From Candidatus Pollutiaquabacter sp. (GTDB lineage: Bacteria > Bacteroidota > Bacteroidia > AKYH767-A > 2013-40CM-41-45), in NCBI GenBank assembly GCA_947465495.1, contig CANIAS010000023.1:1-38182 (forward strand): a DNA stretch of 38,182 nucleotides. Direction: 5' to 3'. The notes under the pieces were generated by a model, which did no database searches, was not told the DNA's origin, and saw only the letters and a program-made list of their open reading frames with translations. This document shows positions 27,846 to 35,871 of the stretch, piece by piece. Within the stretch, counting starts at the first letter, position 1. The number at the start of each line of letters is the position of its first letter. The translations under genes were made by a program, and so were the position numbers.

Positions 27846-28373
27846 ATGGCGGCTCACGCAGTAACCTTCTATTCATTTAAAAAGTTTGAATCCACTATGT
27901 CACCCATTTTCATTTACGAAGACAAAGCCATCCTTCCATTGACGAAGGAGCTGCGACAGCTGATCAACATCACGTTATCCGGCGGACGATTCATCCTTAT
28001 CCATCCACATTATTCCTTGATCAGGGAAGCCATGCGTTTGGATATCATTGAAGAAGAACGCTTAGACGATCTCGAAATAGTTGCCGGACAATATGAGCAA
28101 GGTGAAATGATTCAATTCAGCCGTGAAGACCTTCTCTTCCTCTATTCCTTACTTGAAATCACTTGTCGACTGTTTGTTTGCGAAATTGGTGACGACTTAA
28201 AACGCCTTGCGATAGAATGCGGAGATACCAATGAAGAAGAATTCACGCGCGTCAGAAATTTCTTCTTGCATCAGGCTGAATCTTTTTTGAAAATTACGCA
28301 AGAAGCCTTGTCGGACTGGGAAGAATTCACAAGTCTGCAGGAACGAATCGAACAGCTGAACATCTTGGCATAA
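27846..28373 (+). CDS. Unrecognised acidic helical protein
   Basis: 175 residues from ATG 27846, or 158 from the in-frame ATG at 27897 (MSPIFIYEDKA). The second start looks better: the first 17 residues are unlike the rest, and AAAGTTTG (27881-27888), one mismatch from the -7 consensus, lies just upstream of it. I recognise no family. It has a short beta-like start (IFIYEDKAILPL, GGRFILIHPH), then mostly helix rich in Glu and Leu, with a hydrophobic helix (LLFLYSLLEITCRLFVCEIG) and a coiled-coil-like C-terminus. No signal peptide or clear membrane span, so probably cytosolic. It is divergent from miaE and converges on the GT51 gene 10 bases away. Function unknown. Confidence 0.7.
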   Translation: MAAHAVTFYSFKKFESTMSPIFIYEDKAILPLTKELRQLINITLSGGRFILIHPHYSLIREAMRLDIIEEERLDDLEIVAGQYEQGEMIQFSREDLLFLYSLLEITCRLFVCEIGDDLKRLAIECGDTNEEEFTRVRNFFLHQAESFLKITQEALSDWEEFTSLQERIEQLNILA

Positions 28374-28382
28374 TCATTCAGA

Positions 28383-30317
28383 CTATTCCAACTGATCAAC
28401 AGGCAGCTCTATCAGCGTATCCTTGGGTAATAAATAATCCTTGGCTGGCCCGGTCAAAACTACATTAGGCACCAGGGCATCGTGCTGGATTTGATCTATT
28501 AAATTTTTCCTAAGCATAAAATTAGAAACCACACGGTAATAATCAGCCATATAGGGCTTTAGCGAACCAGTAGTATCGAAAGAAGAGCGGAACCATTTTG
28601 GATGTGGTAACAAACTAGCCAAGAAAATGCCTTCGGAAAGCTCTAGAGATTGTGGCGACTTGTTGAAGTAAAATCTGGAGGCCTCTCCGATTCCATACAC
28701 ATTCGGACCCAGTTCGATGATATTGAAATAAACTTCCAACATACGATCCTTACTTACCAATCGGTTGGATTCTATCAACCAAACCATTAATGCTTCCTCA
28801 GCTTTTCGGGCAATCGTTTTACGACGAGTCAAAAAGACGTTCTTCACCAATTGCATTGTAATAGTACTTCCTCCACGCACAAACTTACCTGCTTTATAAT
28901 TCGCGGCAATTGACTTCCTGAAGGCATCTTCATTGAATCCATTGTGATAGAAAAAACTTCCATCTTCTGACGTCAATACCGCGTTCTTGAAATTAGCGGA
29001 TACATTTTCTACCGCAGTAAAATCAGGATTAGTAGGCCCAATGGTAATTGAACGAATATAGCGCTCATTTTCAAAGACATCATAAACAAACTCACCATTC
29101 ATTTTTGCAATATTACTGGCCCCTAAACTTCTTAATCGAAATTTCTCTTTCTGCAACCGACAATCAAAGACTACATTATCAGGACTCGATGTAGGCAACC
29201 TGAAATTCATTTGGAAGCAAAGCTTTCCATCTGCGCGTATTCCTCGAATCTCATCAAACATACCCTGAGGCAAAGAAGCAAAGAAATCGTTAGCAGGTAA
29301 CGTATCGGTATGCAGCCGCAATGTGTACACAGATTGTGGTTGTCTGTCAATTCGAAGGAACGGATGCACAACCATTCGATCCATCACGGCACTGGAAGTA
29401 CTATCAATCTGAAGATATCCTGAGCCTGCGGAAAAATGGTAATCAAACTTAGAGAATGGAAGTTTTACGGTATCGGCAGCAATCTTTGGATGATGCAGTG
29501 ACAGTCCTTTAACAGAAAAAACACCCTGCAATTCTAATTCATCGGATGAATAATTAAATAAATTCAACGCCAACCGCAGGGTATCAAATCCCAGAGAAGC
29601 GCCAAACAACGAACCAATAACTGGTAGAATTCTATCTCTTTGGAGTGGATAAATGGACACATCAAAGGTCCGTTTACCTTGCTGGAAATCACCCTTCATT
29701 TGCCAACTCCGTCCACTGCTAAGATCAACTAAAGTCGCATGCAAATCCTGAGAAGTAGAAATAAACTCAGGTATCAGCAGGTCTGCCCTCAAGGTATCCG
29801 AACGTACTTCCAAATGCAGTTCAGAGAGATGGGAGCGCTGCGGTGCAAGTGAAAAAGCTTGTGAAAGCAGATTATTCAACAACTTCGCATAACTTGATTC
29901 AACACTAGCAGCATTTGGTATCTCAGCTGATTGATTTTGCTTCTTACCACAATAATTGGCCGTTCCATCTTTCGAACTCAACCGCAATGTCGCTCGATCC
30001 ATTTCCAGGTAACCAAATCCAGGCCTACCCATGATAAAGGAAAAAAAGGAAGGACGAACTGCCAGTGTATCAATTTGCAGTAGCGTATCACCAGCTGCAG
30101 GGACAATTCGAATGCCACTAAACCATATCGTAGAGATCCCACTCATCCCACAATGGTCAATGCTAAGGCGCCAACCATATCGTTCCTCCAATTTAATTTT
30201 GACCTTCGAAAGGACTGTGTCAAGCACAAGTACGCGCAAGGAAAAATAGGCAACCGACAAAAGCAGAAGACTAACCCCTGTCCACTTGATGATTTTTCTC
30301 AATAAATCGACTTTCAC
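28383..30317 (-). CDS. GT51 peptidoglycan glycosyltransferase with AsmA-like N-terminal region
   Basis: 644 residues from GTG 30317. A TTG at 30347 would add 10 residues but overlaps a near-consensus -7 element (TTACTTTG, 30352-30345). In TTG numbering: membrane anchor 20-42, then about 400 residues of beta-rich sequence. The opening (KLEERYGWRLSIDHCGMSGISTIW, then LEMDRATLRL) resembles AsmA / YhdP-type repeating beta-groove proteins. The GT51 lysozyme-like domain occupies about 440-610: catalytic Glu461 in SEDGSFFYHNG, GGSTITMQLVKN (492-503), EEAL (518-521), and Glu538 in RMLEVYFNIIELG. There is no transpeptidase domain. It should polymerise lipid II glycan strands at the periplasmic face. 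The AsmA-like assignment rests on pattern only. Confidence 0.88.
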   Translation of the reverse strand: MKVDLLRKIIKWTGVSLLLLSVAYFSLRVLVLDTVLSKVKIKLEERYGWRLSIDHCGMSGISTIWFSGIRIVPAAGDTLLQIDTLAVRPSFFSFIMGRPGFGYLEMDRATLRLSSKDGTANYCGKKQNQSAEIPNAASVESSYAKLLNNLLSQAFSLAPQRSHLSELHLEVRSDTLRADLLIPEFISTSQDLHATLVDLSSGRSWQMKGDFQQGKRTFDVSIYPLQRDRILPVIGSLFGASLGFDTLRLALNLFNYSSDELELQGVFSVKGLSLHHPKIAADTVKLPFSKFDYHFSAGSGYLQIDSTSSAVMDRMVVHPFLRIDRQPQSVYTLRLHTDTLPANDFFASLPQGMFDEIRGIRADGKLCFQMNFRLPTSSPDNVVFDCRLQKEKFRLRSLGASNIAKMNGEFVYDVFENERYIRSITIGPTNPDFTAVENVSANFKNAVLTSEDGSFFYHNGFNEDAFRKSIAANYKAGKFVRGGSTITMQLVKNVFLTRRKTIARKAEEALMVWLIESNRLVSKDRMLEVYFNIIELGPNVYGIGEASRFYFNKSPQSLELSEGIFLASLLPHPKWFRSSFDTTGSLKPYMADYYRVVSNFMLRKNLIDQIQHDALVPNVVLTGPAKDYLLPKDTLIELPVDQLE

Positions 30318-30433
30318 AGTTGCAATTTGGGAAAAAGTTCCCCTCAAAGTAACTAAATATCATGCACACCGAAACGTTGATAATTAGGTCAGCGTAAGTC
30401 ACAATGCTGGCACTTCCAACTTTAAATTGTTAC

Positions 30434-31690
30434 ATGATGAAACAGCTACATCCAGTCTATCTGCTCTATTTCTTTTTACTGACGCTACTGTTTTCAATTT
30501 CTTTAAGCGCTAAATCCAATATTACGGAAACGTATTATCAAACCACACATCAACAGCAACTCCAGGAGCTTCGCACTAAAGCCCAAAGTCAAGTCGACAA
30601 AAACCTCAATCGTTTCGGATTGGAATGGCTGAAAAAATACGACGTCCTTTCGGACTCTATCGCTGCCCACGAAAAATCGGATACAGTAGCGGCAATAGTC
30701 GCGCAATTCAATCGCGATGCTGCCGGCAAACTATCAACCATTGCTGCCAACAAATCAGAAGTCGAAGAATATGGCAACCAAAACACAGTAGCAAAAAAGC
30801 GTTTTCTCAACCTCTTCACCAAATCCTTAATGGCTTTGGGAGTATGGTTACTCATCATCTTCATAATGATCAGAATGCGAAATAAGAAATTACGAAAAGT
30901 AGAAGCGGTATTAGCGGCAACAAAATTACAAGCTCTTTCCACCGAGGAAGATCAAATCACTGCTAAGCAAAACGTTTCACTCTTTTCAAACAAGGCTGTA
31001 CAACTTGCTGACGCCGCCGAAATAGCACGTGAATCACATCGTCAACTAGAAATTTTTCACGAGCAACTTCCTCCCGGTGATGCAATGCTTGAGTCAACTA
31101 ATGAAGCACTAAAAATCGCAGATAAATTAGCCGTAGCACTTAATCGTGAATCGTTTATTGCTGAAAAAATCGCAGGACAAATTAGCCCTGACAATCTTGA
31201 ATTAACTGCCTGTTCTATCAACGACCTTTGCGACCAATATTTAGAAATCGCATATCAAGGCCACATACATCTATCCTCCCCACCCTTCGAGTGTATAATT
31301 ACAAAAGATCTTGAAAAAAATCTCCAGCCAATCCAGCTACACCCTACTCAGGCAGGCGCAGTGCTGTTAAATGTATTTGATAATGCCTTTAGAGCTGTTA
31401 AAGACCGGGCATCCAAAAATGAAAAAGGATACAAACCTTCCGTTGGTGTGAGTACCCGAATCCTACCTCGTTTCCTTCAGATTCGAATAAAAGACAATGG
31501 CGATGGAATACCAGAAGGCATTCGAGATAAAATACTGGATGAATTCTATAGCACACGGGCTACCGGTGAAGGAGCTGGCGCTGGACTATCAGAAGCCAAA
31601 CGTATTCTTACAACTTTACACAAAGGCGAAATTGTCATCGAATCCGAAACAGGCAAAGGCACTGATGTTTATTTGAAATTATTCCGGTAG
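30434..31690 (+). CDS. Membrane histidine-kinase-like ATPase lacking the phospho-acceptor H-box
   Basis: 418 residues from ATG 30434 (an ATG at 30404 would add ten). Positions here use the 30434 start. Membrane anchor 7-26; helical periplasmic part about 27-130; second span about 131-147; cytoplasmic helices; C-terminal HATPase domain. The CA domain is clear: SINDLCDQYLEIAYQG, N-box LLNVFDNAFRAV with Asn317, G1 box DNGDGIP (354-360), degenerate F/G2 region EFYSTRATGEGAGAGL. It matches the NtrB-like class common in Bacteroidota. The preceding helices have no AHEIxNPL-type H-box: the aligned stretch reads NVSLFSNKAVQ. ATP binding looks retained and canonical His autophosphorylation lost. It lies 3 bases before a partner gene. 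Confidence 0.8.
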   Translation: MMKQLHPVYLLYFFLLTLLFSISLSAKSNITETYYQTTHQQQLQELRTKAQSQVDKNLNRFGLEWLKKYDVLSDSIAAHEKSDTVAAIVAQFNRDAAGKLSTIAANKSEVEEYGNQNTVAKKRFLNLFTKSLMALGVWLLIIFIMIRMRNKKLRKVEAVLAATKLQALSTEEDQITAKQNVSLFSNKAVQLADAAEIARESHRQLEIFHEQLPPGDAMLESTNEALKIADKLAVALNRESFIAEKIAGQISPDNLELTACSINDLCDQYLEIAYQGHIHLSSPPFECIITKDLEKNLQPIQLHPTQAGAVLLNVFDNAFRAVKDRASKNEKGYKPSVGVSTRILPRFLQIRIKDNGDGIPEGIRDKILDEFYSTRATGEGAGAGLSEAKRILTTLHKGEIVIESETGKGTDVYLKLFR

Positions 31691-31693
31691 ATC

Positions 31694-32479
31694 ATGATCA
31701 ACAAAAAAACAATATTGGCGATTTTTATCGCGATCAACGCCGCACTTCTGCCTGCTACAGCGCAATTACAAGATGAACTGCAGCAAATGCAGAACAACGC
31801 TAGTTCCACATCAGTCAAGCCGGAAGCTCTTGACCGAATGGTCAATCGTTTGCGTGATGTGCAACCAAACAACGATCGGGAAGAACAATTATTGATGGAT
31901 ACCCACAAAGCCATAAGCAACGGCTATGCCATTAACAATCACTTTAAACCTGCTTATCGCGAATTCGCAGTTTATCTGGACCTGAAGGAAAAGCAGACTG
32001 AAAAAAAATTTTCAACTGTGGTGAATGAAGCAAAACACAGAATCGATGAAAAAGCGGGTAAACTCGACTCCGAAGTGGATGCCACTCGGAAAGCGGCGGA
32101 CGAATTGAAAAATTCAGCCGCACGTTATACTAATGCTCGTTTCGTGTATAAGAAATTCTTCTCCGCAGCAATTATTGTATTATCTGTTTTGTTTGCTTTT
32201 TCATTGTTCCGTTCTGGATTGCGCCTGTTGAATATGCGCTCAGAAACCACCGAGAAGCGAATTAAAATTGTAGAGATGCATCGTATCGCACTTATTGGAA
32301 AACTAGTAGCTGGAAACGAAAGCGGAATTTCAGCGATGATCAACGACCAACAGCTAGTAACAACAGATCTATTGAAAAGACTTGAGCTCCTAAAGCAATC
32401 CTCCACTGTGTCGACGGACCAGAAAACATTGGAAGCGCTACAGCGCCTTTCAGCCGCATTAAAAAGAATTGCTAGTTAG
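31694..32479 (+). CDS. Membrane protein with pseudo-DHp helix, partner of the kinase-like protein
   Basis: 261 residues. Signal peptide 1-23 (ending ATAQ), helical coiled-coil-like periplasmic domain 24-153, one membrane span about 155-173, and a cytoplasmic tail of about 85 residues. I know no named family. The tail segment [18 protein letters not shown] (195-212) aligns with the kinase H-box pattern xKMAxLGELxAGIAHEI. The phospho-histidine aligns with Ser210 and the following Glu with Gly211. Two further helices follow and the protein then stops, with no ATPase domain. It has the same topology as its upstream neighbour, from which it is 3 bases away. Its stop codon overlaps that of the convergent rocD by three bases. 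Confidence 0.75.
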
Positions 32480-35319: not shown

Positions 35320-35871
35320 ATGTATTTTCGAGGACTACTATTTGTCATCTTTTTCCTTTCAGCTACCGGCATTTCTTTTGCCGACGAGCCGGAAAGTGCT
35401 CTTTCCGCAGCAATTTCTGAAGACTCCAAAGATCCAGAACAGCAACAGCTCGAGTGGTGTTTTGTCTACTCAAATAGACTGGGGTATGACATTCAATACA
35501 TCGCTAATCCACGCTTATTCGATTTTGTAAGTAAATGGATTGATACACCCTACCATTATGCTGGAAATGATGAACAGGGTATCGATTGTTCGGGTTTTGT
35601 TGCTATGATTTACAAAAACGTATATCACATCGATTTAGAAGGCGGTTCCAGGGATATTTATAAAGAATCCACGTCTCTTTCCCGCGCAGATCTACGCGAA
35701 GGAGATATGGTATTTTTTAAGATTAATCCATCCCGAATTTCTCACGTCGGTGTTTATCTTGGTCAGAATAAGTTCGCCCATGCCAGTGTAAAATCAGGCG
35801 TTATCATCAGCGACCTGGATGAACCATACTACCAACAGCGGTATTTTTCGGGCGGACGAATCGGACAATGA
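35320..35871 (+). CDS. NlpC/P60 family peptidoglycan hydrolase
   Basis: 183 residues. Signal peptide about 1-21 (ending SFA). No lipobox cysteine, so a soluble periplasmic or secreted protein. The cysteine-peptidase domain is residues 65-183: Cys90 in GIDCSGFVAMIY, His142 in ISHVGVYLG, and His154 in FAHAS completing the triad. WIDTPYHYAGNDEQG is the typical lead-in. Such enzymes cut gamma-D-Glu-diaminopimelate bonds in muropeptides (family knowledge). It lies 5 bases after rlmD and runs into the start region of the next gene, so it is probably co-transcribed. Confidence 0.92.
   Translation: MYFRGLLFVIFFLSATGISFADEPESALSAAISEDSKDPEQQQLEWCFVYSNRLGYDIQYIANPRLFDFVSKWIDTPYHYAGNDEQGIDCSGFVAMIYKNVYHIDLEGGSRDIYKESTSLSRADLREGDMVFFKINPSRISHVGVYLGQNKFAHASVKSGVIISDLDEPYYQQRYFSGGRIGQ

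Follow-up and report, generated by a model that had tools for sequence, protein, structure and literature searches.

A Bacteroidota protein family joining a TamB/AsmA-like region to a GT51 peptidoglycan glycosyltransferase domain

Glycosyltransferases of the GT51 family and proteins of the AsmA/TamB type belong to two central systems of the cell envelope, which are usually studied separately. In repeating-beta-groove proteins, each unit is made of about five strands and a loop. TamB has been described as a 16-nm rod, and Levine connected both TamB and AsmA with chorein-N, for which the Vps13 structure 6CBC served as the solved template (PMC6791001); a connection of DUF748 with these two proteins has also been drawn (PMC4494059). 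On the side of wall synthesis, the motif residues of the S. aureus monofunctional glycosyltransferase MGT include Asp111 in motif I and Gln136 in motif II (PMC6053601). An AsmA query has been used to catalogue AsmA-like proteins in F. johnsoniae, and the passages concerned mention no GT51 fusion (PMC12045153). No description of AsmA combined with GT51 or a transglycosylase was found in the literature searched, a scope that left most subscription journals outside. The family described here is widespread in Bacteroidota and apparently undescribed: its parts are known, and their pairing appears to be unreported.

Layout of the protein and its GT51 domain

The DNA analyzed (the window) is a stretch of 38,182 nucleotides from Candidatus Pollutiaquabacter sp. 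The open reading frame of 644 residues that the original prediction had placed in it is present there, on the minus strand (Table 1), with two equally possible start codons (GTG at 30317 or TTG at 30302, five codons downstream). As in the AsmA-like superfamily, a single predicted N-terminal anchor is followed by a beta-rich region. Lys/Arg residues precede the anchor, and R28, which follows it, is invariant in 52 homologues; the protein is predicted to have this one anchor in the inner membrane and its remainder in the periplasm. The some 400 beta-rich residues expected between anchor and GT51 are borne out by the AlphaFold2 model, in which residues 48-400 are almost wholly beta-strand.

Table 1. 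Positions in the window of the fusion gene and its parts
Feature	Positions	Strand	Length or evidence
Whole gene, AsmA/TamB-like region fused to GT51	28383..30317	-	644 aa
Single N-terminal transmembrane anchor, residues 9-27	30237..30293	-	hydrophobic column means; helix 3-47 in model
Chorein-N/TamB-AsmA-like part, residues 28-160	29838..30236	-	TamB/AsmA-type N-termini, GspN, Vps13 fragment fold
Remainder of the putative groove, residues 161-400	29118..29837	-	DSSP of models, strand amphipathicity, hhalign with own AsmA
Best-conserved motif of the putative groove, residues 342-366, around SLPQGMFDEIRGIRADGKL	29220..29294	-	invariant columns; hhalign
Conserved beta-hairpin linker into GT51, residues 401-427	29037..29117	-	strands 410-416, 419-426; conserved columns
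GT51 peptidoglycan glycosyltransferase domain, residues 428-577	28587..29036	-	Pfam Transgly 5e-43; PBP1A GT fold
Catalytic Glu451 codon, motif I EDxxFxxH	28965..28967	-	invariant 52/52; aligns with 2oqo/3nb6
Second conserved Glu508 codon, motif III RKxxE	28794..28796	-	invariant 52/52

The C-terminal GT51 domain without a transpeptidase, also part of the original prediction, was recovered as the sole Pfam domain of the protein: Transgly scores 147 bits against a cut-off of 27, and the same scan gave neither a transpeptidase nor PF04357. NCBIfam GT51 models match the protein as well, and Transgly matches all 52 homologues, with no transpeptidase among the Pfam families matched in them. The domain aligns with Aquifex PBP1A, and its fold compares with that of the A. 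aeolicus PBP1A glycosyltransferase at Z 16.2 (172 residues, 2.2 A). The residues E451, D452, G482, S484, T485, R504, K505, E508, K523, E528, Y530 and N532 are invariant in the 52 homologues, the motifs RGxST, RKxxE and KxxMxExYxN are conserved, and His458 is found in 50 of the 52. A degenerate GT51 is ruled out by the invariance of the catalytic set, and the domain is expected to be an active enzyme. At the jaw, the position of S. aureus MGT Asp111 is occupied in the family by Val, Ile or another residue, and that of Gln136 is always Met in the 52 homologues, as it is in A. baumannii PBP1a. This Met488 (28852-28854) replaces the first Gln of GGSTxxQQ in all of them, and offers a handy signature for telling the GT51 of the fusion from MtgA. 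The hydrophobicity of the jaw (GRAVY) is -0.71 in the fusion family, between MtgA (-1.02) and PBP1 (0.16); a family-specific shift, which might have pointed to an off-membrane enzyme, was not found.

The closest described enzymes are the MtgA/MGT proteins, which share with the fusion the GT51 fold and catalytic residues, a single N-terminal anchor, the lack of a transpeptidase and the same side of the GT51 tree. However, about 400 residues separate anchor and GT51 in the fusion, whereas the catalytic motif of MtgA-type proteins lies 65-150 residues from the start of the frame. The fusion protein also scores 151.3 bits against the TIGR02070 cut-off of 182.65, over profile positions 56-200 of 224. 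Class A PBPs (PBP1a/1b/1c) likewise have a GT51 domain, but they carry the transpeptidase that the fusion lacks and fall in a separate clade.

Kinship and predicted fold of the beta-rich region

The opening of the beta-rich region, originally described as AsmA/YhdP-like, proved to resemble the N-terminal ends of both TamB and AsmA-type proteins. In the fusion protein itself, residues 17-101 are matched weakly (E 2e-4) by the NCBIfam model GspN, which we take to be an AsmA-related secretion protein, and Pfam gives no match to AsmA, DUF748 or YhdP. Among the 52 homologues, matches were obtained to DUF748 in 32 (best E 9.7e-12), to AsmA in 14 (best 2.4e-8) and to YhdP in three (best 1.1e-6), and in the members inspected they fall at the N-terminal end of these profiles. 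Members scanned singly score below the cut-offs of the three families, although the best AsmA match (E 2.4e-8) should lie near or above the cut-off of 29.8 bits. The fusion resembles the AsmA/DUF748/YhdP proteins through N-terminal matches in many members, and differs from them in scores mostly below the curated cut-offs and in its C-terminal enzyme.

A profile search in the reverse direction, with residues 33-428 as query against genomes of the same genus, family and order, also picked up, more weakly, frames of about 1480 residues and others of 850-900 residues in those genomes. Five such frames were inspected: PF04357 identifies three of them as TamB (E 5e-53 or better), and the other two are of the AsmA/DUF748 type. 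The match sits at the N-termini of these proteins, with E values from 1e-12 (TamB) to 5e-9 (AsmA-type). By hhalign, the beta region aligns with a TamB over 99 residues (94% probability, E 1e-7), and residues 136-343 of its profile align with an AsmA protein of the same genome (69%, E 4e-5), which gives weaker support for the second half; as an unrelated control, the PBP1a of the same genome gave 0.2% and E 0.27. The span aligned with this AsmA protein takes in a conserved SLPxGLF..L.G....G.L motif. Within residues 342-366, P350, F354, G359 and G364 are invariant, and the AsmA protein has this motif in similar form (SFLSLLPPRFVHYFKDFKSSGKF) in the hhalign alignment. Chance likeness, or an artefact of beta-rich sequence, is ruled out by the profile matches together with the negative PBP1a control. 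The N-terminal part of the beta region is therefore regarded as homologous to TamB/AsmA, a relationship that the sequence comparisons make firm only for roughly the first 100-170 residues. In Bacteroidota TamB, the homologous segment occupies the same place after the anchor. However, TamB has about 1480 residues, against a groove of about 350 in the fusion, and the TamBs of related genomes have the C-terminal domain PF04357, whereas the fusion ends in an enzyme. A sequence search of the PDB for a relative of the groove returned PBP/MGT chains only, at the thresholds used.

AlphaFold2 models were built with 52 family sequences and reached a mean pLDDT of 88.7 (pTM 0.78) for the whole protein and a pLDDT of 87.1 for residues 33-428 alone. 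In the modeled order, the anchor helix is followed by four strands, a crossover helix, five strands, a helix, about five strands, a further helix, two long strands, the hairpin and GT51. Residues 28-160 comprise an amphipathic helix, the four strands and the crossover helix, and DSSP places runs of about five strands in residues 161-400, each closed by a short helix (232-238, 342-348). With one unit taken as about five strands plus a loop, the beta region would correspond to roughly three to three and a half groove units. As a family average, the strands are strongly amphipathic, hydrophobic on one face and polar on the other, with a value of 0.63 against 0.40 in shuffled strands (none of 2000 shuffles as high).

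Fold comparison related the beta region to an N-terminal fragment of Vps13 (6cbc; Z 9.5, 162 residues, 5.2 A), to LPD-3 (Z 9.1, 313 residues, 8.2 A, model residues 1-366) and to the Atg2 N-terminus (Z 7.6), all of which share an N-terminal helix followed by a curved beta-sheet. In contrast to these proteins, with which no sequence likeness was found, the fusion is bacterial, short and joined to GT51. Z values as high as those of the lipid-transfer proteins were also obtained for porins, BamA and VDAC. Because beta-barrels score equally, the fold search by itself shows no more than a curved, single-layer-like sheet and proves no groove. In Foldseek, LPD-3 was the sole non-GT51 chain below 1e-3 for the full-length model (1.5e-4); the isolated beta region returned nothing below E 1e-3, an absence that is not evidence. 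It is the sequence homology to TamB/AsmA, rather than the fold match, that points to a groove. The original prediction had named a model without a repeating beta-groove, or profile matches to an unrelated domain family, as outcomes against it; the model shows repeating beta elements, and the profiles lead to AsmA/TamB relatives.

Distribution, descent and genomic setting

The survey of this architecture in Bacteroidota that was originally proposed covered 198 genomes, the present one among them. Long homologues occur in 21 of the 197 other genomes (L005-L025), with 27-37% identity over the alignment. When the beta region alone was the query, 36 of 41 genomes of the same genus, family and order proved to have this architecture (own genome left out; matches with E under 1e-40). 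A contig scan gave at least 80 loci, mainly in Pedobacter, Flavobacterium, Pontibacter, Mucilaginibacter, Spirosoma, Larkinella and Rufibacter. Complete members have open frames of 634-767 residues, with the fusion intact in all of them, and every GT51 of the clade has at least 330 residues ahead of its catalytic motif. Thus, the fusion is fixed and is not an accident of gene calling.

In a tree of 96 GT51 domains, those of the fusion family form one clade (SH-aLRT 100) on a long branch (1.05), separate from MtgA on the monofunctional side of the tree and apart from PBP1. The simplest reading of this tree is that the fusion arose once and then descended mostly vertically. The sole match from outside Bacteroidota among the matches listed (L101) comes from a 7.9-kb contig of a Krumholzibacteriia metagenome bin; its GT51 falls among those of Bacteroidota in the tree, and a binning error probably explains it.

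The Candidatus Pollutiaquabacter genome also encodes a 737-residue PBP1a, a 231-residue MtgA, two AsmA proteins and one TamB. Since the genome keeps all of these, the fusion is an addition to the usual sets and no substitute for them. The order of neighboring genes is kept only inside the same taxonomic family, in most genomes with enough flanking sequence, and differs elsewhere; an operon or a conserved partner gene is not implied, since synteny is confined to that family. Two plus-strand genes (30404-32479), transcribed away from the fusion gene, keep their place as a pair in most same-family genomes. The first encodes a membrane protein with a HATPase_c domain and no HisKA by Pfam, and the second a coiled membrane protein with no Pfam match above cut-off. 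On the other side, 27846-28373 (plus strand) encodes a protein of 175 residues, for which neither Pfam nor NCBIfam gave anything above cut-off; it is conserved at about 50% identity, beside a MiaE-like gene, in most same-family genomes. A gene of the NlpC/P60 cell-wall peptidase type (35320-35871, plus strand) lies about 5 kb from the fusion gene.

Possible function and alternative readings

The reading that we put forward, at even chances, is that of an active, transpeptidase-free GT51 polymerase tethered to the membrane through a short lipid-binding groove of the TamB/AsmA type that acts locally. The tether of the GT51 domain to the inner membrane would then be the TamB/AsmA-type region, instead of a transmembrane helix directly, and the enzyme would polymerize lipid II at the periplasmic face of that membrane. 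The groove would bind hydrophobic tails: it may keep a C55 tail, belonging either to lipid II or to the growing chain, close to the cleft of GT51, or its being occupied or empty may tie polymerase activity to the supply of lipid. Cross-linking would be left to other enzymes, such as the PBP1a of the same genome. If its 350 residues are scaled in proportion from TamB, the groove would be about 4-5 nm long and would end short of the outer membrane, so any lipid binding would act locally; at about a quarter of the length of TamB, it also makes trans-envelope lipid transport by the fusion protein alone unlikely. The groove may plausibly hold lipid II or the carrier of lipid II, or deliver either of them. 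The profile searches, the confident model and the conserved family support the architecture originally predicted; a groove that feeds or senses lipids at the polymerization site is the putative part of that prediction.

The main rival reading takes the beta region as a spacer or docking scaffold that sets the distance between GT51 and membrane or binds partners, and that handles no lipid. The groove is indeed far shorter than TamB and evolves fast, with a mean identity to this fusion protein of 25%, compared with 61% for GT51, the best-conserved part. However, TamB and AsmA are fast-evolving too and are nonetheless regarded as lipid carriers, and in the beta region the strands retain a hydrophobic face across the family and several residues are invariant. 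A scaffold would also suit the need of GT51 itself to reach the membrane for lipid II, where its jaw embeds (PMC6053601). On balance, we consider the scaffold possible, at a tentative level.

Two related proposals would move the enzyme away from the bilayer. That the groove is a conduit for lipid II or undecaprenyl, lifting the precursor from the inner membrane to a GT51 held off the bilayer, seems unlikely; if true, it would, to our knowledge, make this protein the first bridge-like lipid carrier to have an enzyme of its own, and also the first case of a GT51 supplied through a protein groove. It is slightly more doubtful still that lipid II or lipid-linked chains are raised to a GT51 standing nanometres above the membrane, with polymerization near the sacculus: the jaw is at least as hydrophobic as that of ordinary MtgA enzymes, which leaves room for direct contact with the membrane, and we know of no GT51 that works off the membrane, although in the model the anchor lies at the opposite end, as such an arrangement would have it (PMC6791001). 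Least credible, and highly improbable in our view, is a lipid carrier for outer-membrane biogenesis in which GT51 merely binds peptidoglycan or is vestigial. The TamB/AsmA-like N-terminal part and the two deviating jaw positions would fit such a role, but no catalytic residue varies among 52 sequences, no other part is as well conserved as GT51, the C-terminal domain of TamB is absent, and the groove does not have the length to span the periplasm.

With a locally acting, groove-tethered polymerase as the preferred reading, the fusion family suggests that lipid handling and wall building may be directly linked. As a short, single-chain AsmA groove, the fusion protein may allow cargo to be identified more easily than in much longer bridges. 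Because this fixed fusion occurs in Flavobacterium, Pedobacter, Mucilaginibacter, Pontibacter, Spirosoma and others, the coordination of lipid flow with wall growth could be tested through one gene in tractable hosts.
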